Assembly (NCBI GenBank): GCA_016218715.1 | Contig: JACRDG010000088.1 | Location: 1-53,986 of the forward strand | DNA: 53,986 nt | Source of the DNA: Desulfomonile tiedjei | GTDB taxonomy: Bacteria > Desulfobacterota > Desulfomonilia > Desulfomonilales > Desulfomonilaceae | Direction: 5' to 3' | In this document: positions 6,265 through 14,934 of the stretch, piece after piece | How positions within the stretch are numbered: the stretch's first letter is position 1 | Layout: the number at the start of each line of letters is the position of its first letter | Notes under the pieces: model-generated | The model's input: only the letters and a program-made list of their open reading frames with translations | Databases searched by the model: none | What the model was told of the DNA's origin: nothing | Translations under genes and position numbers: made by a program

Positions 6265-7500
6265 TCACCTCCCTGCAAAGACGGCCATAAGGATAACATA
6301 GATCACTGCCGACGTTGCCGCTGCTACCGGAACCGTGATCATCCAGTAGAGCATGATCTTCCAGAGTATTCGCAAGTCGAGCGCATCCATTCCTCTTGCC
6401 AGACCTACTCCCACAAACGCGCCGACCGCCGCATGAGTCGTCGAAACCGGAAGCCCCATCATGGAGGCAACAAGAATCACGGAAGCCGCGGAGAATTCCA
6501 CAGTGAATCCGCGGACGCTCGTCAATTCGGTGATCTTCGACCCCATCGTCTCAATGACCCGGTATCCCCAGGTGCAAATTCCCACACAGATCATTGCCCC
6601 ACCGAAGGCCAGCAACCAGATTGGAACCGGGGCCTTTTCCGCCACCGACCCCGTCGAGAAAATGTAGTAAATCCCAGCCAGGGGACCCATGGCATTGGCC
6701 ACGTCGTTGGCTCCGTTCCCGAAAGCCACGTAGCTGGAGGTCATCACCTGGAGATACCGGAAGATCTCTTCCGCAACCGCAATATTCCACCGACGAAGCG
6801 CAAATCTGAAAGCCGCGGCGCACAGGAGGTAACTAACAGCCGCGACCATTCCGGGAACGACTGCCACCCAGACCCCCTCGATGCCGAGCTTTTGGCCCAT
6901 CGGCGTATCGAGAAAGAGCGAAAGCGTCATGATGAACATCGTTGCCGCGACCAGCAGAGGACCGGTCCTGGCAGCGCCCCCTGCGGTGTCCATGCGCGAG
7001 AGTATCGTCCTGTCAATGAACTTGAAGATCAGGAAGGCCGCCACGCCGCTCAGGATCGGCGACAGCACCCACGACGTCACGATGAAGGCCACCTTGCCCC
7101 AATACACGATCGAAGGCCCTCCGGAGACAAGGCCGACCCCGATCATGGCCCCGACGATGGAATGCGTTGTAGAGACCGGCAGGTTCCTGTACGTGGAGAG
7201 ACAGACCCACAGTGAGGCAGCGAGAAGGGCCGCGAGGAGAGCAAGGGCGATCTCTTTGGGATTGCCCAGGGCGCTGGTGTCGACGATCCCCTTACGAATC
7301 GTCTGAGCCACGTGCGATCCCACGAAAGTGGCGCCGAGGAACGTCAGGACAGTGGCTATAACAAGGGCCTGCCGTAACGTGATGACCTTTGCGCCCACAG
7401 CGGAAGCCATCGCGTTCGCGCAATCATTGGCCCCTATGTTCCAGGCCATGTACGCGCCCGCAAAAACGCTCAAAACAAGCAGGCTAGTTTCTAAGTTCAT
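6265..7500 (-). CDS. pit: PiT family inorganic phosphate transporter
   Basis: A 411-residue inner-membrane transporter (PF01384) for inorganic phosphate, moved with H+ or Na+ as a metal-phosphate complex. The duplicated family signature is clear: NIGANDCANAMASAVG at about residues 21-36 and GNGANDVANAMGPLAG in the second half. Each repeat also carries the LPVSTTHAxxGA motif (LPVSTTHSIVGAMIGVG and LPVSTTHAAVGAFVGVG). About ten transmembrane helices are apparent. The ATG at 7500 has AGAGGA about 14 bases upstream, a long spacing. It is the first gene of a two-gene operon with the DUF47 partner. Confidence 0.94.
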   Translation of the reverse strand: MNLETSLLVLSVFAGAYMAWNIGANDCANAMASAVGAKVITLRQALVIATVLTFLGATFVGSHVAQTIRKGIVDTSALGNPKEIALALLAALLAASLWVCLSTYRNLPVSTTHSIVGAMIGVGLVSGGPSIVYWGKVAFIVTSWVLSPILSGVAAFLIFKFIDRTILSRMDTAGGAARTGPLLVAATMFIMTLSLFLDTPMGQKLGIEGVWVAVVPGMVAAVSYLLCAAAFRFALRRWNIAVAEEIFRYLQVMTSSYVAFGNGANDVANAMGPLAGIYYIFSTGSVAEKAPVPIWLLAFGGAMICVGICTWGYRVIETMGSKITELTSVRGFTVEFSAASVILVASMMGLPVSTTHAAVGAFVGVGLARGMDALDLRILWKIMLYWMITVPVAAATSAVIYVILMAVFAGR

Positions 7501-8037
7501 GTACGGGAGCTTTTCCTCTTTGGATCACCACCGAGGCACTCGTCCTCGTCTTCCCGGCAAACCGGAGAAATGAGTTTGCCAGTTTACCAGATCGACCGCA
7601 CAGGTCAAACCTAATCCTAACGGATAGCTAACCGTTGTCTTACACAGGGCACTTGTGCGCTCAACCTGGACCACTGAAGAGGAACGTTTCTTCTCCCTCA
7701 TTCCGCAGGAGGCCGAAATCCAGGAAAAAGAAGCCGGCTCCCGAGTTCCGTCGCGACGACGTGAGACCACGGGATTGATCCAGAGTCAACAGCGTGGATG
7801 AGTAGCTCTGGGAAACTGAATGGGTACACGGACAGCTCGCTGCAAAGGCGCCGCGTCGGATACCTGGCGGGGGCCGCGGTACCGCGCGTCGGTCATCGAC
7901 AGAAGGCTTGAAAGCCGTTGCTGAATATGATTGAATTAACAAAAGGTCGCGGATGATCGCGTGATCCCGGGATTGCCGTGATCCACGATTTCTGTGAGTC
8001 CTCCTGGGACAAGCCCACAGGTTCGCGGTGCAGCACC
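7501..8037. other. Intergenic region upstream of pit and the MoaD-like gene
   Basis: Divergent gap of 537 bases. Bases 7639-7722 carry a degenerate copy of repeat family B, listed separately. The rest has no open frame with protein-like composition. Around 7945-7985 there are short overlapping palindromes built on GATC (GATCCCGGGATT, GTGATCCACG) of unknown meaning. No clear promoter is seen for either neighbour. Confidence 0.4.
7639..7722. repeat. Dispersed repeat, family B, degenerate copy 1
   Basis: CTTACACAGGGCAC at 7639-7652 is identical to 49719-49732. The alignment continues through a poorly conserved spacer into CTCATTCCGCAGGAGGCCGA (7697-7716), which matches GTCATTCCGGCGGAGGCCGG in the copy at 49776. 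The arm that would complete the palindrome is eroded here, so this looks like an old copy. Confidence 0.6.
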
Positions 8038-8277
8038 ATGAAGCTCCACATCCATCTCTACGCCTCTCTCGCGTCTCACCTCCCGGAAAAGTCCGACCGG
8101 AATTCGTGCTTCCTTGAAGTCGCCGACGGAATGACCATCCGGCAACTCCTCGAGCAGTTGGGAATCCCCGAGAATGCACCGAAGATTCTCTTCCGGAACG
8201 GCGTCCACGCGGAACTCGACGAAATCATGAAGGACGGGGATCGCGTCGCAGTCTTTCCGCCGATCGCCGGCGGCTGA
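8038..8277 (+). CDS. MoaD/ThiS-family sulfur carrier protein
   Basis: A 79-residue beta-grasp protein ending in PPIAGG, the C-terminal diglycine that is adenylated and thiocarboxylated in MoaD and ThiS. The fold pattern is clear: MKLHIHLYASLASHLP, then the helix MTIRQLLEQLGIP, the strand ILFRNGVHAELDEIMKDGDRVAVFPPIAGG. MoaD donates sulfur for pyranopterin dithiolene formation, and AOR-family enzymes need two such pterins per tungsten. An AOR gene lies 2.7 kb downstream on the same strand, separated by a chemoreceptor gene on the other strand. An earlier GTG at 7978 keeps the frame open, but the family's usual N-terminus begins at 8038; neither start has a strong ribosome site. Which enzyme it serves is inference. 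Confidence 0.88.
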   Translation: MKLHIHLYASLASHLPEKSDRNSCFLEVADGMTIRQLLEQLGIPENAPKILFRNGVHAELDEIMKDGDRVAVFPPIAGG

Positions 8278-8298
8278 TTTCATTTGGCCTTGGGGAAC

Positions 8299-8460
8299 CA
8301 AGTCTTGATGCAAGCTGGGGATGATAGTGACGGGGGCAGGGCTGGGCATTGCATCGGGACACCCCACATTCGTGCTGAACGACCCGCTGCCCGCAAAACG
8401 ACTCGGAATCACGTACGTCGGTTCCCCGGAGGATGCGCAAATTCAAACGCAAGATCCAGG
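8299..8460. repeat. Direct repeat C, left copy (flanks the chemoreceptor gene)
   Basis: This segment aligns in the same orientation with 10450-10594, at roughly three quarters identity by eye and with a few small gaps. The best block is CGTCGGTTCCCCGGAGGATG, identical over 20 bases at 8416-8435 and 10551-10570. A second block is CCCCACATTC. The two copies bracket the methyl-accepting chemotaxis gene. No protein family is recognised in any frame of the repeat. Confidence 0.75.
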
Positions 8461-8483
8461 TATTGTATGGGAATGCCAGGGGT

Positions 8484-10115
8484 TCAAACCCTATATTGGT
8501 GCACCAACTCCTTTAGGTTTCCTCCCAAATCGGTCAAGCGCTGCGCGGCAGATTCCAATTGGCCTGTAGAATCTGTTGCCTGACGCATCGCGGCATCGAT
8601 ATTTGCCATGGCGCCGGAGACCTGATCCATTCCAACTGCCTGTTGTTCGCTCGATGTCTGGATTACCAGGGCCGACTGAGCTGACGCGGCGACGCTGCTC
8701 GAAAGCCTGGAAATGGCGTTGCCGGCCTCCTGCGATTGGTCGACTCCCGCCTGGACCGCCTTACTGCCCTGCTCGGTCGCCATAACTACCGCACTGACCC
8801 ATTTTCTGGTACCCTCGAGAATGACTCGGATTTGCTCGGTGGCATCTCGGGACTGATCGGCCAGCGACTTGATCTCCTGGGCGACCACAGCGAATCCCTT
8901 TCCCTGGTCGCCTGCCCTTGCCGCCTCAATCGAGGCATTGACCGCAAGCAGGTTCGATTGGTCGGCAAGATCCTGCACCGTCGCGATGATGCCTTCGATG
9001 GCCTGACTCTGTTCGCTCAGTGTTACCACCGCTTCGCCGATTGACCCCATCTGTTCCCTGATCAGGGTTATCTTGTCGATGGTCCCTTCGGTTGCTTGCT
9101 TGCCGGCTTCAGAAACCTGAACCGCCTCTTTGGAGCTTTCGGCAACCCCTTTCGCTTTTTCATTGGCCAGTCTCGCAGCTTGCTTAACCTGTTCGACTGT
9201 AGTGCTCGTTTCAGCGACTGCCGCGGATGTCGAGGAACCACTCGTGGCGAGCTGAGTGGCGGTGGCAGCCACCTCGGCAGCCGAGGAAGTGAGAACATTA
9301 ACGGCTTCAAGTATCCTGCGAATCTGCTCCTTGAGGTTGCTGACCATGGCATTAAGTGATGCGCCAAGTCGGCCGACTTCGTCGCTGCTCCTGGCATCAA
9401 GGGTCCTCGCCAAGTCTCCCTCGCTGATGGACTCGGAGAAGGTCACAGCATCCATCAGACGGCGAGTTATCCCTGAAGCCAGGAAATAACTTATGGCCAG
9501 GGCGAGCAGTGTACTTACAGTCAGTCCGTATACGACAAGGTCCGTCATAAAGTTCGCTGCACGCACTCCGTAACCGATCTGCTGGGCAATCAGGCCATCC
9601 GTTTTTTTCTTGAACGTTGTCATTATGTTCCTGAGATTATCCAAGCTCTTTTCCACTCGAAGCGAAGACACAAGTTCATTCACCTCGCGTATGGCTTGAG
9701 AATCCGACATGCCCTTGCGTCGTTCGAACAAGGGTTGGGCAAATTCCGCTTGCCATCTGCCGACCGACTTTGCTGCGTCATCGATTGCTCTTATTGCCTC
9801 TTGGTCGCTGCCCAGCGCACCTTTCATGGCAGTCAGATCCCCTGACAAAGTTGCCCGTGCGGTGTTGTACCGCTCTAAAGCCTTGTTGCTACCGCTCAAC
9901 AAGTACTCGTGTACCCCGCTTTCCACTTCCGCGGCACTTCTCTCAACCTCCAGGATATGTCTTCCCAACTGCACGCCCCGGTCTGTCGATAAAAGAATGT
10001 TCGTCAGGATGTGAAGCGTCCAAATGCCTGCTATGCCGATAAGAATGCATACGAGCACCGGCAGAATAGATCCCGACATGATTTTAGGCTTGAGCCCCAG
10101 GTTTATGAACTTCAT
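8484..10115 (-). CDS. Methyl-accepting chemotaxis protein
   Basis: A 543-residue chemoreceptor. The ATG at 10115 is chosen because AAGGAG lies six bases upstream; the frame is open to 10229. Layout: transmembrane helix at about 13-37; a periplasmic four-helix sensor of about 150 residues (CHASE3/4HB type); a second transmembrane helix at about 191-213; HAMP at about 214-268 (ending in [15 protein letters not shown]); and a long cytoplasmic signalling coiled coil. The highly conserved hairpin tip reads [19 protein letters not shown] followed by [20 protein letters not shown]. It ends LVHQYRV, with no CheR-tethering pentapeptide. It lies antisense between the MoaD-like and AOR genes, with no che genes nearby. 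The ligand is unknown. Confidence 0.95.
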
Positions 10116-10265
10116 GGTAATCTCCTTCCACCTGAATGCGGTGTTTGCCACGAAAAGGGCTTCCGCAGTAACAACAGAGGGCTTCTCGATGGCGCGAGAT
10201 TCTGGCACGTTCCGATCGCCTCCCGACACAAAACGACCAGAATCGAGAGGGATTTCAAAAATATG

Positions 10266-10293
10266 AGTATAGAGGAAGAGAGGGCTACGTCAA
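10266..10293 (-). promoter_or_regulatory. Sigma-70-type promoter for the chemoreceptor gene
   Basis: On the minus strand, TTGACG (10293-10288), 16 bases, then TATACT (10271-10266); five of six consensus bases match in each box. Transcription would start near 10259, giving a leader of about 145 bases before the ATG at 10115. Confidence 0.6.
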
Positions 10294-10449
10294 GAAGCAA
10301 AAATCATCGTTCACGGAAGTCGATTTAAGGAACAACGTGTGACCGGCCATGCCGGTTCGATCATGATGACTCGCTTTACGAGAAGAACCGGGCGGGCACG
10401 AGTTATCGACGGATCGGCACTCATGAAGCGGGCAACCAGGGCTCGATAC

Positions 10450-10594
10450 AAGTCGAGGATGATTGCGATGGAGCAGCTCTGCGCATTGTCTCGGGATGCC
10501 CCACATTCATGCCGAAGATCTGCTGTCCGCAAACGACTCAAGATCAAGCGCGTCGGTTCCCCGGAGGATGTGCGAATTCCAAGGAAACCTCCAG
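10450..10594. repeat. Direct repeat C, right copy (flanks the chemoreceptor gene)
   Basis: Partner of the copy at 8299-8460, in the same orientation and sharing the exact 20-base block at 10551-10570. It lies between the chemoreceptor promoter and the AOR operator. With its partner it frames a segment of about 2 kb that holds the complete chemoreceptor gene and its promoter. Confidence 0.75.
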
Positions 10595-10760
10595 GGCCTT
10601 TTCCAAATGAATCTTCCTCCGGTTAGCTCCTCGCAAGCAAGCCTCTCCGAGTTGGTTTCACTGGCTCCACCTTTGGTTGTTTTATCCTACCTTACCACCT
10701 TCTGGGAGCGCCGAAGATATCCCCCCATCGGTGACGGGCGCGTGTCGCGGAAAGGGTCCC

Positions 10761-10782
10761 GTTATGTCATGAGTGACATAAC
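10761..10782. promoter_or_regulatory. Perfect 9-bp palindrome (operator) before AOR
   Basis: Half-sites GTTATGTCA (10761-10769) and TGACATAAC (10774-10782) are perfect inverted copies around a TGAG spacer. The shape, a 22-base dyad with a TGTCA/TGACA core and a 4-base centre, resembles CRP/FNR-family operators but matches none I know exactly. It ends eight bases before TATAAT, so it covers the -35 region of that promoter. Confidence 0.6.
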
Positions 10783-10789
10783 TACACCA

Positions 10790-10795
10790 TATAAT
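10790..10795 (+). promoter_or_regulatory. Probable -10 element of the AOR promoter
   Basis: A perfect TATAAT. At the proper distance upstream there is no good TTGACA; that place is taken by the 22-base dyad, as expected for a promoter that depends on an activator or is shut off by a repressor. Transcription would start near 10802, leaving about 155 bases of leader before the GTG start. Confidence 0.5.
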
Positions 10796-10957
10796 TAGAC
10801 TTTTTCCCACTTTTCCCTTGACGGGGCCCCGCACGACAGTTACCCTGAAGTCGATGCGATGAATCCTTCACGCCGTACCCGGGGAGACGTTGTCCCAGGT
10901 TCGGCACAGCGGTCCGACCCACAATTTCCAGCCATAACCAGGAGAAGGGAGCGACCC

Positions 10958-12694
10958 GTGGACAAAATACTCAGGATTGATATGGGTGCGGCAGGCGGCC
11001 CCAAGGCCAGTGAGACTCCAGTCGGCCAGTACGCCGGAGCGGCGGGCCGGGCGTTGACGTCGGCCATCGTCGCCAATGAAGTTGATCCGCTCTGTCACCC
11101 GCTCGGCGCAGACAACAAGCTTGTCATAGCTCCCGGCATGCTCGGCGGCACGATAGCCGCGATGTCCGGAAGGATTTCCGTCGGATGCAAGAGCCCGTTG
11201 ACGGGCGGAATCAAAGAAGCCAACGCCGGCGGCCAGGCCGCGCAGGTCATGGCGAGACTGGGTTACGCGGCCATCGTTCTGGAAGGCAAGCCCAAGGACG
11301 ATAGCCTGTACAAAGTGGTCCTCAACAAGGACGGAGTGACGATTTCTCAGGACAACAGCCTGAAAATGCTGGGTAACTACGACCTCGTGGACAAGATGAA
11401 ATCCCAGCACGGCGACAAGATTGCCTGCATCTCCATCGGCCCCGCCGGTGAAATGAAGATGTGCGCGGCCTCCGTAGCATTCACCGACATGGAACTCAGA
11501 CCCACGCGGCATGCCGGTCGCGGGGGCGTGGGCGCAGTCATGGGGGCCAAAGGGGTCAAAGTGATCGTCCTCGACGACACCGGCATGTCCATGCGGCCGG
11601 CCAAAGATCCGGAGAAGTTCCGGGATGCCAACAAGGCATGGGTCGATGGCCTCAAGAAGCATCCTGTCACCGGAGAAGGCCTCCCCGCGTACGGAACCAA
11701 CGTGCTGACCAACGTGCTCAACGAAGCCGGCGCTTACCCCACGAAGAATTTCATGTTCGGCCGTTTTGACGGGTGTGCCAAGATCAGCGGCGAAACCCAG
11801 GCGGCCACCGAGGTGGAACGAGGCGGCAGCGCCACCCACGGCTGCCACCGGGGCTGCGTGATCCAGTGCTCGGGCATATACCTGAACAAGGACGGGCACT
11901 ATCTGACGAAGCAGCCGGAGTATGAGACCGTCTGGGCTCACGGCGGGAACTGCGGCATCGATGACCTCGATGCCATAGCTATGCTCGACCGACTTGACGA
12001 CGACTACGGTGTGGATACCATCGAAATGGGCGCAACCATAGCAGTCGCCATGGAGGCGGGTGTGGCGAAGTTCGGCGATGCCCAGGCAGCCATCAACCTG
12101 GTGCATGAGGTCGGCAAAGGGACCCCGCTCGGACGTATCCTGGGGAACGGTGCGGGAATGACCGGCAAGGCGTTCGGTATCGAGCGTGTACCTGTGGTGA
12201 AGAACCAAGCCATGCCCGCGTACGATCCTCGGGGCGTTCAGGGTATCGGTGTGACCTACGCCACCACCCCCATGGGAGCGGATCATACCGCGGGGTATGC
12301 GGTTGCGGCCAACATCCTCAAAGTAGGCGGTTTCGTCGATCCCCTCGCGTCGGAAGGGCAAATCGAACTTTCGAGAAACCTCCAGATCGCGACAGCGGCT
12401 GTCGATTCTACCGGCATGTGCCTGTTCGTTGCCTTCGCAGTTCTCGATCAGCCGGAAACGTTCCAGGCACTCATCGACATGATCAACGCGTTCTACGGAT
12501 TGAGCCTGACTGCTGACGATGTGGTGGCACTGGGCAAGTCGGTCCTGAAGAACGAACGTGAATTCAACAAGAAAGCCGGATTCACCGCGGCGGACGACCG
12601 GTTGCCGGCCTATTTCAGGAAAGAATTGCTTCCGCCGCATAATGTCGTCTTCACGGTGACCGACGAGCAACTGGATTCGCTTTTCAACTGGTAG
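10958..12694 (+). CDS. aor: Aldehyde:ferredoxin oxidoreductase (tungsten-pterin family)
   Basis: A 578-residue oxidoreductase of the W-bis-pyranopterin AOR family, which interconverts aldehydes and acids using ferredoxin. The GTG at 10958 is chosen because AAGGGAG ends six bases before it. Family marks: GGTIAAMSGRISVGCKSP near the N-terminus; [4Fe-4S] ligands Cys296, Cys300 and Cys304 in GCHRGCVIQCS; and Cys488 in DSTGMCLF. The pterin-binding pattern D-x-x-G-L/M/V-D/C appears twice, as DDYGVDTIEMG and DSTGMC. The first three cysteines are spaced C-X3-C-X3-C, whereas Pyrococcus AOR has C-X2-C-X3-C. A MoaD-like gene lies upstream and a beta-grasp protein follows. The substrate cannot be told from sequence. 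A 620-residue antisense open frame is a GC shadow. Confidence 0.93.
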   Translation: MDKILRIDMGAAGGPKASETPVGQYAGAAGRALTSAIVANEVDPLCHPLGADNKLVIAPGMLGGTIAAMSGRISVGCKSPLTGGIKEANAGGQAAQVMARLGYAAIVLEGKPKDDSLYKVVLNKDGVTISQDNSLKMLGNYDLVDKMKSQHGDKIACISIGPAGEMKMCAASVAFTDMELRPTRHAGRGGVGAVMGAKGVKVIVLDDTGMSMRPAKDPEKFRDANKAWVDGLKKHPVTGEGLPAYGTNVLTNVLNEAGAYPTKNFMFGRFDGCAKISGETQAATEVERGGSATHGCHRGCVIQCSGIYLNKDGHYLTKQPEYETVWAHGGNCGIDDLDAIAMLDRLDDDYGVDTIEMGATIAVAMEAGVAKFGDAQAAINLVHEVGKGTPLGRILGNGAGMTGKAFGIERVPVVKNQAMPAYDPRGVQGIGVTYATTPMGADHTAGYAVAANILKVGGFVDPLASEGQIELSRNLQIATAAVDSTGMCLFVAFAVLDQPETFQALIDMINAFYGLSLTADDVVALGKSVLKNEREFNKKAGFTAADDRLPAYFRKELLPPHNVVFTVTDEQLDSLFNW

Positions 12695-12717
12695 ATTCGT
12701 TTTCAGGCCAGTGTTAT

Positions 12718-12758
12718 AAACGGGAGACAACCCAGGCGGGTGCTCCCGTTTGTTCTTT
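12718..12758 (+). terminator. Rho-independent terminator after AOR
   Basis: AAACGGGAG (12718-12726) pairs perfectly with CTCCCGTTT (12743-12751), and TGTTCTTT follows. It lies 24 bases past the AOR stop, so most AOR transcripts should end before the next gene at 12944. Confidence 0.8.
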
Positions 12759-12943
12759 AGCAGTTACCAAGAATAGCGTTCGAGTGAATGCCCGACGGTT
12801 TCGGGGCACCCCCGGTACGAACACTCAGAGCCGTTACCCCTTCGTTCGGGAGTCCTCCAGACCGTCTTAGGAAATCGGTCAGAGAATTGGGAACTGCCAT
12901 AATGACCACATCCAATAGGCTGAACCCAGAATGAGGCAATGAT

Positions 12944-13606
12944 ATGGACACACAGAACCTGGGAGATCGAGCCCAAGTGAAGCTCGATCTCACCTGCGAT
13001 GCGCAAATTCTTCCCCCCTTCTTTCTCCTCCTGCAGCAGGGAGTTCGTTTCGAGGCCCGCGTGGGAGCGACCGTCGAGGAATTCTTGTGCACGCAACTGG
13101 GGATCGAGCGGCGGTATCTGAAAGAGAGAATTAACACGATCTTTCTCGACGGCAAGCCTGTGGACGACGCGGAGACCGCAGTGATAAGGGATGGATCGAC
13201 CTTGGCCCTTTCCGCCGCCCTGCCGGGACTGGTAGGCGCTGCGTTCCGGAAAGGCGGATTCTACGCCCGTCTGCGCGAAGGCATTTCCCATGCCGATGAG
13301 GAATCGAAAGGAGCTGCCGGTCGCGGTCTCGTCACAGTGAAACTGTACAACCTCGTAGCCAAGGAGTTGGGTCCTCAACTGCTCGGCACCGGAGTTCTGG
13401 TAGAGACCGACGATTTGGAACAGTTCTTCGCCGGGAGGCCCGACGGTTTCTGGAGCCGCTGCCGGCACGCGGCCGTCGATGACCGCGTCTCTTCGGTCAG
13501 CGATCTCCGGCAAGGGGTGTGGTGGCAAAGACCCGCCCTGGTGAGGCTCACCGTATCGACGGTTCCTGCGGGTGAAGGCCCTAGCGCAAAGCCGGAGTCG
13601 CCATAA
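12944..13606 (+). CDS. Protein with internal MoaD/ThiS-like domain, next to AOR
   Basis: A 220-residue cytoplasmic protein, starting at the ATG at 12944 with GAGG seven bases upstream. Residues about 35-100 align with the MoaD-like protein at 8038: FEARVGATVEEFLCTQLGI, then INTIFLDGKPVDDAETAVIRDGSTLALSAALPGLVGA. This places DGSTLAL...PGLVG where the carrier has DGDRVAVFPPIAGG. The terminal diglycine is missing and the chain continues for about 115 residues (YARLREGISH, VTVKLYNLVAKELG, LVETDDLEQFFAG), which I do not recognise. The reading on this strand is favoured over the longer antisense frame by its ribosome site and by the fold match. The position after AOR suggests a role in tungsten-pterin enzyme maturation or regulation; that is inference. 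Confidence 0.75.
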   Translation: MDTQNLGDRAQVKLDLTCDAQILPPFFLLLQQGVRFEARVGATVEEFLCTQLGIERRYLKERINTIFLDGKPVDDAETAVIRDGSTLALSAALPGLVGAAFRKGGFYARLREGISHADEESKGAAGRGLVTVKLYNLVAKELGPQLLGTGVLVETDDLEQFFAGRPDGFWSRCRHAAVDDRVSSVSDLRQGVWWQRPALVRLTVSTVPAGEGPSAKPESP

Positions 13607-14136
13607 GCAGGGCCTTTCGGAGAATGGTTCAAGAGCCCCTTTTCCGCACAAGAGAAGGATTCCCCTGTCTCCGAGAGCAGTTGCCAACAGCCCCGTCTTT
13701 TTCGATTTGCTATTAGTCGTCTGTCGATCATGGTCTGGGTGCCACTGCCGGCTTGCCCAGCAGTGGTATCCAGTACGAGGATATTCATTGACTTTTTGGC
13801 CAAGCGAGACCCACCTCCTGGCGGTTCCTTCAGCTCAATCGTTCCCAGATCTCGGCAACCTCCAGTCCACGTTATCCCCGACACTCCGATTGCGACACCC
13901 GCCCCGTTGGCACCGAGCCCAGAACACCCCGTCCAAAACGGAGATCGTCTTGAAATCATTATTTGCGAATGCTATATAAGGCTGCAAAGAGACTGGCCCT
14001 TGTCAATGCTCGGGGGACACTTCACGGCCGCGGGCCCGGCGCGCGGACCACCGCGGGCGCAGGGGCACCCGCGTTAGCTCTCACGGGGGGATCGTCGCGG
14101 CGAGGACTTCTCATAAGGTCTCGGGGAGGGAAATGA
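13607..14136. other. Intergenic region before the corrinoid methyltransferase
   Basis: Gap of 530 bases. It holds one good sigma-70-type promoter at 13950-13978, followed by a very GC-rich leader (about 14015-14080, rich in GGGC/CGCG) that could fold strongly. The open frames here on both strands are short, Arg/Ser/Pro-rich and unlike proteins. I looked for a cobalamin riboswitch because of the downstream gene and saw no B12 box. Confidence 0.45.
13950..13978 (+). promoter_or_regulatory. Sigma-70-type promoter for the methyltransferase gene
   Basis: TTGAAA (13950-13955), 17 bases, TATATA (13973-13978). Spacing is ideal, with five of six matches at -10 and at least four at -35. Start of transcription is expected near 13985, giving a leader of about 150 bases to the ATG at 14137. 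Confidence 0.55.
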
Positions 14137-14934
14137 ATGATCATCGTCGGAGAAAAAATCAACACGGGGAGACCCCGGATTACGGAAGCGATGGCAAAGC
14201 GCCATGCCTCTTCTATTCTCGCGGTGGCCCGCGAACAGGCACAAGCAGGGGCGGACTTTATCGACGTCAATGCGGGGACGTTTCTGGAACACGAGGCCGA
14301 TTACTTGTCGTGGCTGGTGGAGACGATCCAGGGCGAAGTGGACTTACCGCTGTGTCTGAGCACATCTAATGCGTCGGCCCTGTCTGAGGCCATGAAACGC
14401 CACCGCGGGGAGCCGATGGTCAATGCGATCTCGCTGGCAAAAGAGCGACTTCGATCGTTTCTCCCGGTCATTACCAGCCGGCCGTGTCGCGTCATCGCCC
14501 TGAGCGCGGCCGAAGGCAGCACTCCCGTACCCCTTGATGAGAGGATCAGAGCTAGCTCCGAACTCATCTCCATACTCACCGGTGAAGGGATACCGCCGGA
14601 AAAAATTTACATCGATCCCGCGGTTCAACCGATGGTCAAGGATTCCGGCACGGGGCTGGCTACAATCGGCACGATCCGGCAGATGGTCGCCGATTTCCCC
14701 GAAGTCAACACGATCTGCGGGATTTCCAACGTGTCGTTCGGGCTCCCCGCACGACCGTTCATCAATCGTCAGTTTCTGGCGTTGCTCATGACCGCAGGGC
14801 TCTCAGCGGCGATCCTGGACCCTACAGACAAGCACCTCATGGCAACGCTCCTCGCGGTGGATGCGCTCCTCGGCCGCGATGCATCCTGTAAGTCCTTCAT
14901 CGACGCATACACAAACGGCCGCATCGCCGTATGA
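14137..14934 (+). CDS. Methyltetrahydrofolate:corrinoid methyltransferase (pterin-binding)
   Basis: A 265-residue TIM-barrel enzyme of the pterin-binding family (PF00809), which contains AcsE/MeTr and the corresponding domain of MetH. It starts MIIVGEKINTGRP and has the family pattern ADFIDVNAGTFLEHEADYLSWLVETIQ, LCLSTSNASALSEAMKRH, VNAISLAKER, IYIDPAVQPMVKDSGTG and GISNVSFGLPARPFINRQFLALLMTAGLSAAILDP. The Asn of ISNVSFG hydrogen-bonds to the pterin in MeTr. No cobalamin domain is attached, so it should act on a separate corrinoid protein, as in the Wood-Ljungdahl pathway. No corrinoid protein or acs gene lies in this window. GGGAGGG lies six bases before the ATG. Family certain, partner unknown. 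Confidence 0.88.
   Translation: MIIVGEKINTGRPRITEAMAKRHASSILAVAREQAQAGADFIDVNAGTFLEHEADYLSWLVETIQGEVDLPLCLSTSNASALSEAMKRHRGEPMVNAISLAKERLRSFLPVITSRPCRVIALSAAEGSTPVPLDERIRASSELISILTGEGIPPEKIYIDPAVQPMVKDSGTGLATIGTIRQMVADFPEVNTICGISNVSFGLPARPFINRQFLALLMTAGLSAAILDPTDKHLMATLLAVDALLGRDASCKSFIDAYTNGRIAV

Follow-up and report, generated by a model that had tools for sequence, protein, structure and literature searches.

A predicted two-domain beta-grasp-like protein tied to one clade of tungsten aldehyde:ferredoxin oxidoreductases

Small sulfur-carrier-like proteins have been linked to tungsten enzymes before. Passages of Iyer, Burroughs and Aravind (2006; PMC1779556) describe MoaD as lying strictly beside the gene of aldehyde:ferredoxin oxidoreductase (AOR), often with MoeB, and propose a role in the tungsten cofactor. 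The window analysed here, the whole 53,986-nucleotide stretch of Desulfomonile tiedjei contig JACRDG010000088.1, likewise has a MoaD gene near an AOR gene, and differs in a third gene, encoding a 220-residue protein, P220, that the text passages of the 2006 paper (as distinct from its figures) do not name. We find P220 to be a real, uncatalogued and clade-specific partner of AOR, neither an ordinary protein nor an artefact.

A further precedent is a 2019 study of Aromatoleum aromaticum by Arndt et al. According to parts of that paper, the aor operon carries two MoaD-like genes, aorD and aorE, whose products are not in the purified AOR (PMC6365974), and part of a 2023 AOR structure paper lists both genes as well (PMC10413684). 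Two MoaD-like genes accompanying an AOR is the likeness to our locus; the difference from AorD and AorE, which that paper describes just as MoaD-like, would be that P220 has two domains and no MoaD/ThiS match in Pfam. Lastly, sections of Putumbaka et al. (2026; PMC13328260) introduce WorX, a ThiS-like protein encoded near tungsten oxidoreductases (WORs), whose exact function is unknown and for which a role in pterin biosynthesis is predicted. As described there, WorX is, like the proteins studied here, a beta-grasp protein whose gene lies next to that of a tungsten oxidoreductase large subunit, and it too has a predicted part in pterin handling. The name, taken as that of a ThiS-like protein near a class I WOR, would fit the MoaD of the window, whereas for P220, also near a WOR, neither Pfam nor NCBIfam detects ThiS likeness in any of 87 members; P220 has two domains and lacks a terminal Gly-Gly (GG). 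In the literature searched, to which supplements, most subscription papers and preprints did not belong, we recognised nothing on the P220 family or on a link between Lar proteins and AOR. An AOR-linked, MoaD-like helper is a known kind of protein; what looks new is a form with two domains and without GG, and how closely it is paired with one AOR clade.

P220 and one clade of AORs

P220 is encoded at 12944-13606 on the plus strand, the strand of MoaD and AOR, and the open reading frame (ORF) of 220 codons noted by the first-pass annotation is borne out. Relatives were detected in 23 of 99 genomes searched (its own included), and a scan of genome contigs returned at least 223 genome-contig loci; given this conservation, we regard P220 as a real gene. 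The best 80 of these at least 223 loci were surveyed, all picked via P220 and two of them (L053, L064) from one genome. Their records, mostly metagenome-assembled, are named as Desulfobacterota-type bacteria, Nitrospirae, Spirochaetes, an Acidobacterium and a Fermentibacterium, and include two cultured strains, Desulfonema magnum and Desulfoferrobacter suflitae. L122 was dropped since its ORF was too short by rule, and L095, L101, L112, L120 and L124 were left out of alignment A2. One further match (G140:C23:25257-25805) contains an in-frame TAA and is possibly a decayed or mis-assembled gene.

None of the 87 family members (P220 and 86 relatives) matches Pfam or NCBIfam at E <= 0.01, the MoaD/ThiS models of both collections (PF02597 in Pfam) included. 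Convincing sequence matches in the PDB were likewise absent, for P220 (best E 0.4) and for its family profile (best E 0.11).

Where do these genes lie? In 67 of the 80 loci (66 by script, L129 by inspection), AOR immediately precedes P220 on one strand, with a median spacer of 106 nt in the 66, and in 16 of 17 genomes of another order it lies beside P220, so that P220 homologues do not lie mostly without AOR, the outcome that would have spoken against the pairing proposed by the first-pass annotation. The AORs in question are mostly 70-83% identical to that of the window (56% in L051). Thirteen loci lack an adjacent AOR. Seven of the corresponding genomes were searched and all seven hold an AOR, 71-79% identical in six; G104 has, apart from more distant AORs, only short pieces at 62-69%. 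The genomes of the other six loci, taken as G010, G012, G008, G033, G009 and G019, contain an AOR of the clade in five cases, G010 being the exception. In L110, one of the thirteen, just 158 nt of contig precede P220 and adjacency is not visible. An apparent natural AOR-P220 fusion in L088 was rejected, the open frame passing through unknown bases read as X. MoaD-like genes lie within 6 kb of P220 in 45 of the 80 loci and E1-like, ThiF-family genes in 21, both minimum counts, as many of the contigs are short. Beside Nitrospirota AORs, several MoaD-like frames (L062 10610, L095 12071, L107 4931, L119 10602) extend about 8-21 residues past GG, and their products would have to be trimmed before they could serve as carriers.

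In two genome sets, P220 and AOR were searched separately. The identity threshold for a 'clade AOR' was chosen with the data in view, at gaps in the lists (70 to 64% in the first set, 69 to 58% in the second), which puts it at 70% and 69% identity to the window AOR, respectively. In the first set (99 genomes, own included), AORs of any sort occur in 89 and clade AORs, fragments counted, in 22; these counts are among the matches listed, which were ordered by score, such that short pieces of high identity could be missed. P220 and clade AOR were found together in 20 genomes, clade AOR alone in 2, P220 alone in 3 and neither in 74 (Fisher p 8.9e-16). The second set, 67 genomes from the order of G066, shares only that genome with the first. 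Here, P220 occurs in 18 genomes and clade AOR in 17, both together in 17, clade AOR alone in none, P220 alone in 1 and neither in 49 (p 5e-15). In 16 of the 17, AOR and P220 share a contig, with 64-824 nt between them; in the seventeenth, G122, a contig end truncates P220, and MoaD and ThiF come after it. P220 was found in none of the 20 second-set genomes whose AORs (E <= 1e-150) are all 52-57% identical to the window AOR.

A quick maximum-likelihood tree of 90 AORs (76 with P220 adjacent or at another place in their genome, 12 lacking it and 2 outgroups; L064, which equals L032, and L088 left out) places 74 of the 76 P220-associated AORs, together with L139, which lacks P220, in one clade of 75 with a Shimodaira-Hasegawa-like approximate likelihood-ratio support of 99. 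Most rows of this tree were obtained via P220, which makes the two genome sets the fairer test. P220 is tied to one AOR clade in both gene order and genome content.

Anatomy of P220

An AlphaFold2 (AF2) model built from the 87 aligned members reaches a mean predicted local distance difference test (pLDDT) of 87 and a predicted template modelling score (pTM) of 0.82. Residues 11-90 and 126-207 are well modelled, with strands and helices in similar order, and the predicted architecture is one of two beta-grasp-like halves joined by the most conserved stretch of the protein. Domain 1 (residues 11-90; 12974..13213, plus strand) has pLDDT values of 94-97 by block. Its kinship with MoaD, claimed by the first-pass annotation, holds by profile: aligned to the local MoaD family with hhalign, it reaches a probability of 88 and a score of 35.9, and none of 100 controls with shuffled columns reached that score. 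The first-pass annotation had described a single internal domain; beyond it, the second half (residues 126-207; 13319..13564, plus strand) appears to be a diverged beta-grasp-like repeat, its profile matching that of domain 1 at a probability of 85 (again, 0 of 100 shuffled controls as high). Against MoaD, the domain 2 profile is weak (hhalign probability 10; this half was not folded or structure-searched alone).

A predicted structure had been suggested as a check for the fold, and the model does contain a beta-grasp-like domain. Compared by VIA, the top rows are two ThiS structures, at Z 5.9 (1zud_2) and 5.6, with MoaD at 4.5; RluD, which is no sulfur carrier, reaches 4.6, level with MoaD, which makes these scores weak by themselves. 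Foldseek returned no match to the model at E <= 0.001, the best being MoaD 6jbz_B at E 0.36. The model thus weakly points to a beta-grasp fold, and does so for domain 1 only.

The joining segment, residues 91-114 (13214..13285, plus strand), begins where MoaD would end in GG. Of the 27 positions that are conserved in 90% of rows or more, 11 fall in this segment (Fisher p 1e-5, initial Met excluded), whose motif reads A-x-P-G-x-x-G-A-x-x-R-x-G-G...R..I. Modelled alone, it has a pLDDT of about 60-68 and is poorly ordered. Conservation without order of its own is expected of a stretch that becomes ordered upon meeting a partner, and we infer that residues 91-114 may do so. No row ends in Gly-Gly (0 of 87); instead, domain 1 runs on into the conserved segment, in support of the label 'non-conjugating' that the second protein had been given. 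Nor does the family alignment contain an invariant or nearly invariant cysteine.

Partner genes and a sister clade

The AOR of the window (10958..12694, plus strand, 578 residues) carries both AFOR_N (PF02730, E 1.7e-55) and AFOR_C (PF01314, E 2.1e-79), and its GTG start agrees with the homologues, most tblastn matches beginning at or near residue 34 of a longer ATG-initiated ORF. Sections of PMC13328260 list Thr243, Glu313, Tyr427 and His448 as residues of the Pyrococcus enzyme (PfAOR). Their equivalents by alignment to 1aor (9mqx was aligned as well), T247, E323, Y422 and H443, are invariant in the 23 rows of alignment A3, as are the cysteines for one [4Fe-4S] cluster, C296, C300, C304 and C488. 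By its domains and residues, the protein is a predicted tungstoenzyme, the large subunit of an AOR-family enzyme. Its cluster motif, CX3CX3C, is kept in the aligned clade rows, where Pyrococcus AOR reads CX2CX3C over the stretch that aligns.

The MoaD-like carrier lies at 8038..8277 on the plus strand. Its 79 residues match PF02597 (E 1.8e-11) and end in ...FPPIAGG, as first described, and by both features it is a predicted sulfur carrier of the MoaD/ThiS type, one of three PF02597 proteins in its genome. The one strong PF00899 gene (E1-like type) of that genome sits on another contig. Between MoaD and AOR, on the minus strand, lies a chemotaxis-receptor gene (CHASE3-HAMP-MCP, 8484-10229), which the first-pass annotation does not mention. 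A Moco/Tuco riboswitch was not among the matches at window positions 7500-14200, the only region searched for one.

How do related AORs manage without P220? The P220 profile finds no match at E < 0.01 in 20 AOR loci (L132-L151), 13 of which (L139-L151) hold AORs 54-64% identical to that of the window. Five of these 13 sister loci encode a GG-ending MoaD and a second, GG-less MoaD (L140 6758-6976, L144 7142-7357, L146 4147-4365, L148 3646-3795, L149 4337-4489) in which a conserved tail, PPE(L/V)(A/S)(F/Y)N..(V/M), replaces GG. The tailed form was found by tblastn and a profile then built from those sequences; in the other eight loci (L139, L141-L143, L145, L147, L150, L151), neither MoaD profile matched. 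Like P220, the tailed MoaD is a second beta-grasp protein near AOR without GG; unlike P220, it is a single domain recognisable as MoaD, and the P220 profile does not match it at E < 0.01. L149 lies in G006, a genome whose P220 is elsewhere. Since sister-clade loci pair a GG-ending MoaD with a GG-less tailed one, a carrier combined with a tailed non-carrier seems to be a recurring pattern, reached by two routes.

Some P220 genes keep company with Lar genes. According to parts of PMC7583248, LarB, LarE and LarC produce the nickel-pincer cofactor that LarA uses. Among the 80 loci, 5 have Lar genes no farther than 10 kb from P220 (L057, L064, L079, L130 and, with larC alone, L069); LarE, LarB and LarC of L032 and L079 pass the NCBIfam cut-offs, and the others were found by tblastn to those of L032. 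A detached P220 follows directly behind larC in L030, L069 and L079. Desulfonema magnum shows the order larE, larB, moaD, thiF, about 1.2 kb without a called gene, larC and, about 17 nt on, P220, the Lar and ThiF family names being confirmed by family check, while its AOR is about 2.2 Mb away. More broadly, larC, in several loci with larE and larB, stands beside a clade AOR, its MoaD or P220 in L064 (L032), L057, L079, L130, L069, L042, L044, L045, L134, L142 and L030; L142 is a sister-clade AOR locus without P220. In the genome set, LarC (in G003 also LarE) is encoded beside clade AOR or P220 in G002, G003, G004, G009, G015 and G087. In these six and in G012, none of the LarA matches listed falls on that contig, and G004 (99% complete) has LarC and, among the matches listed, no LarA match at E <= 1e-3. 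The presence of LarC proved uninformative as a marker: it was found in 88 of 99 genomes, and because it is so nearly universal, only the position of Lar genes may be informative.

Possible roles of P220

What might P220 do? Linkage and co-occurrence strongly suggest a local module that makes the AOR cofactor or inserts it, as the first-pass annotation proposed, and in which P220 may act as a scaffold or in some other step. Under the reading we favour, to which we give about an even chance, P220 is a maturation factor dedicated to a single clade of tungsten AORs. The local MoaD, charged by an E1-like protein, would supply sulfur for the pyranopterin dithiolene. P220 would keep the beta-grasp surface without being able to carry sulfur, and its conserved middle segment may hold apo-AOR or the pterin while tungsten bis-pterin is loaded, upon which P220 would leave.

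Several observations weigh against this reading. P220 occurs without a clade AOR in G006 (a 59% AOR elsewhere), in G080 (a 58% AOR beside it on the opposite strand) and in G010 (no AOR above 31%, in a genome 83% complete), and P220 of G141 has no adjacent AOR in a genome showing only AOR fragments of 50-55%. Conversely, clade AORs without detected P220 exist in G002 and G077 (AOR fragments only), and the 64% AOR of G024, again without detected P220, falls in the same tree clade, outside of which the tree places the AORs of L051 and L149, whose genomes do have P220. AORs 52-64% identical mostly do without P220. Detached copies in L055, L090, L091 and L096 have no recognised cofactor gene alongside, as judged from the first 70 residues of each neighbour. 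Finally, an AF2 fold of the read-through from AOR start to P220 end (NCBI table 27, 882 residues, the spacer serving as linker, alignment A4 with 105 rows) gave a pTM of 0.71 and, for P220 residues 89-128, a pLDDT of 69-77, compared with 60-79 for residues 91-130 alone; it showed no clear docking and no convincing ordering of the conserved segment.

Adjacency and co-occurrence fit equally well a structural or regulatory subunit of AOR, for example one docking the electron carrier; P220 would then be comparable to the beta-grasp proteins RnfH and TmoB, which are not known to end in GG. Ubiquitin-like RnfH and TmoB are indeed on record in oxidoreductase operons, in passages of PMC1779556. We still consider a subunit rather unlikely. 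P220 can be encoded far from AOR, in some genomes directly behind larC and thus beside cofactor genes (L030, L069, L079), the MoaD-like products of Aromatoleum are absent from the purified enzyme according to parts of PMC6365974, and all of these argue for maturation; furthermore, P220 has no cysteine, invariant or almost so, that could serve in electron transfer. The MoaD-like domain without GG, and the MoaD and ThiF genes often found nearby, could also be those of a pseudo-carrier that regulates or replaces MoaD, binding MoaE or the E1-like enzyme without sulfur and tuning the supply for AOR. Such a role is improbable in that P220 follows one AOR clade and was undetected in 76 of 99 genomes, whereas the ThiF and MoaE families are general, with matches in 12 (ThiF) and 11 (MoaE) of 14 control genomes.

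The company of Lar genes invites a bolder proposal, in which the clade AOR has an assembly line of its own, with MoaD/E1 sulfur transfer, P220, larE, larB and larC cooperating. If true, the cofactor would bear an unrecognised modification, or LarB, LarE and LarC would have a second use outside LarA racemases; we think this quite doubtful. Could P220, on the other hand, be a chance or hitch-hiking neighbour without any link to AOR? The foreign chemotaxis-receptor gene between MoaD and AOR does indicate that the neighbourhood of the window is not rigid. Yet the association has a Fisher p near 1e-15 in two genome sets sharing only G066, and it holds also where P220 and AOR are not adjacent. On these two co-occurrence tests, we reject a chance neighbour and accord it next to no probability.

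To our knowledge, how tungsten bis-pterin is loaded into AOR-family enzymes is unsettled. The main text of a 2025 review of tungsten enzymes contains neither 'MoaD' nor 'maturation' (PMC12096430). P220 is a concrete candidate for this loading step, with a clean genetic signature and a presence in records of cultured strains. It provides a starting point for annotating a family now missed by both Pfam and NCBIfam, and it might aid the expression of clade AORs for acid-to-alcohol chemistry.

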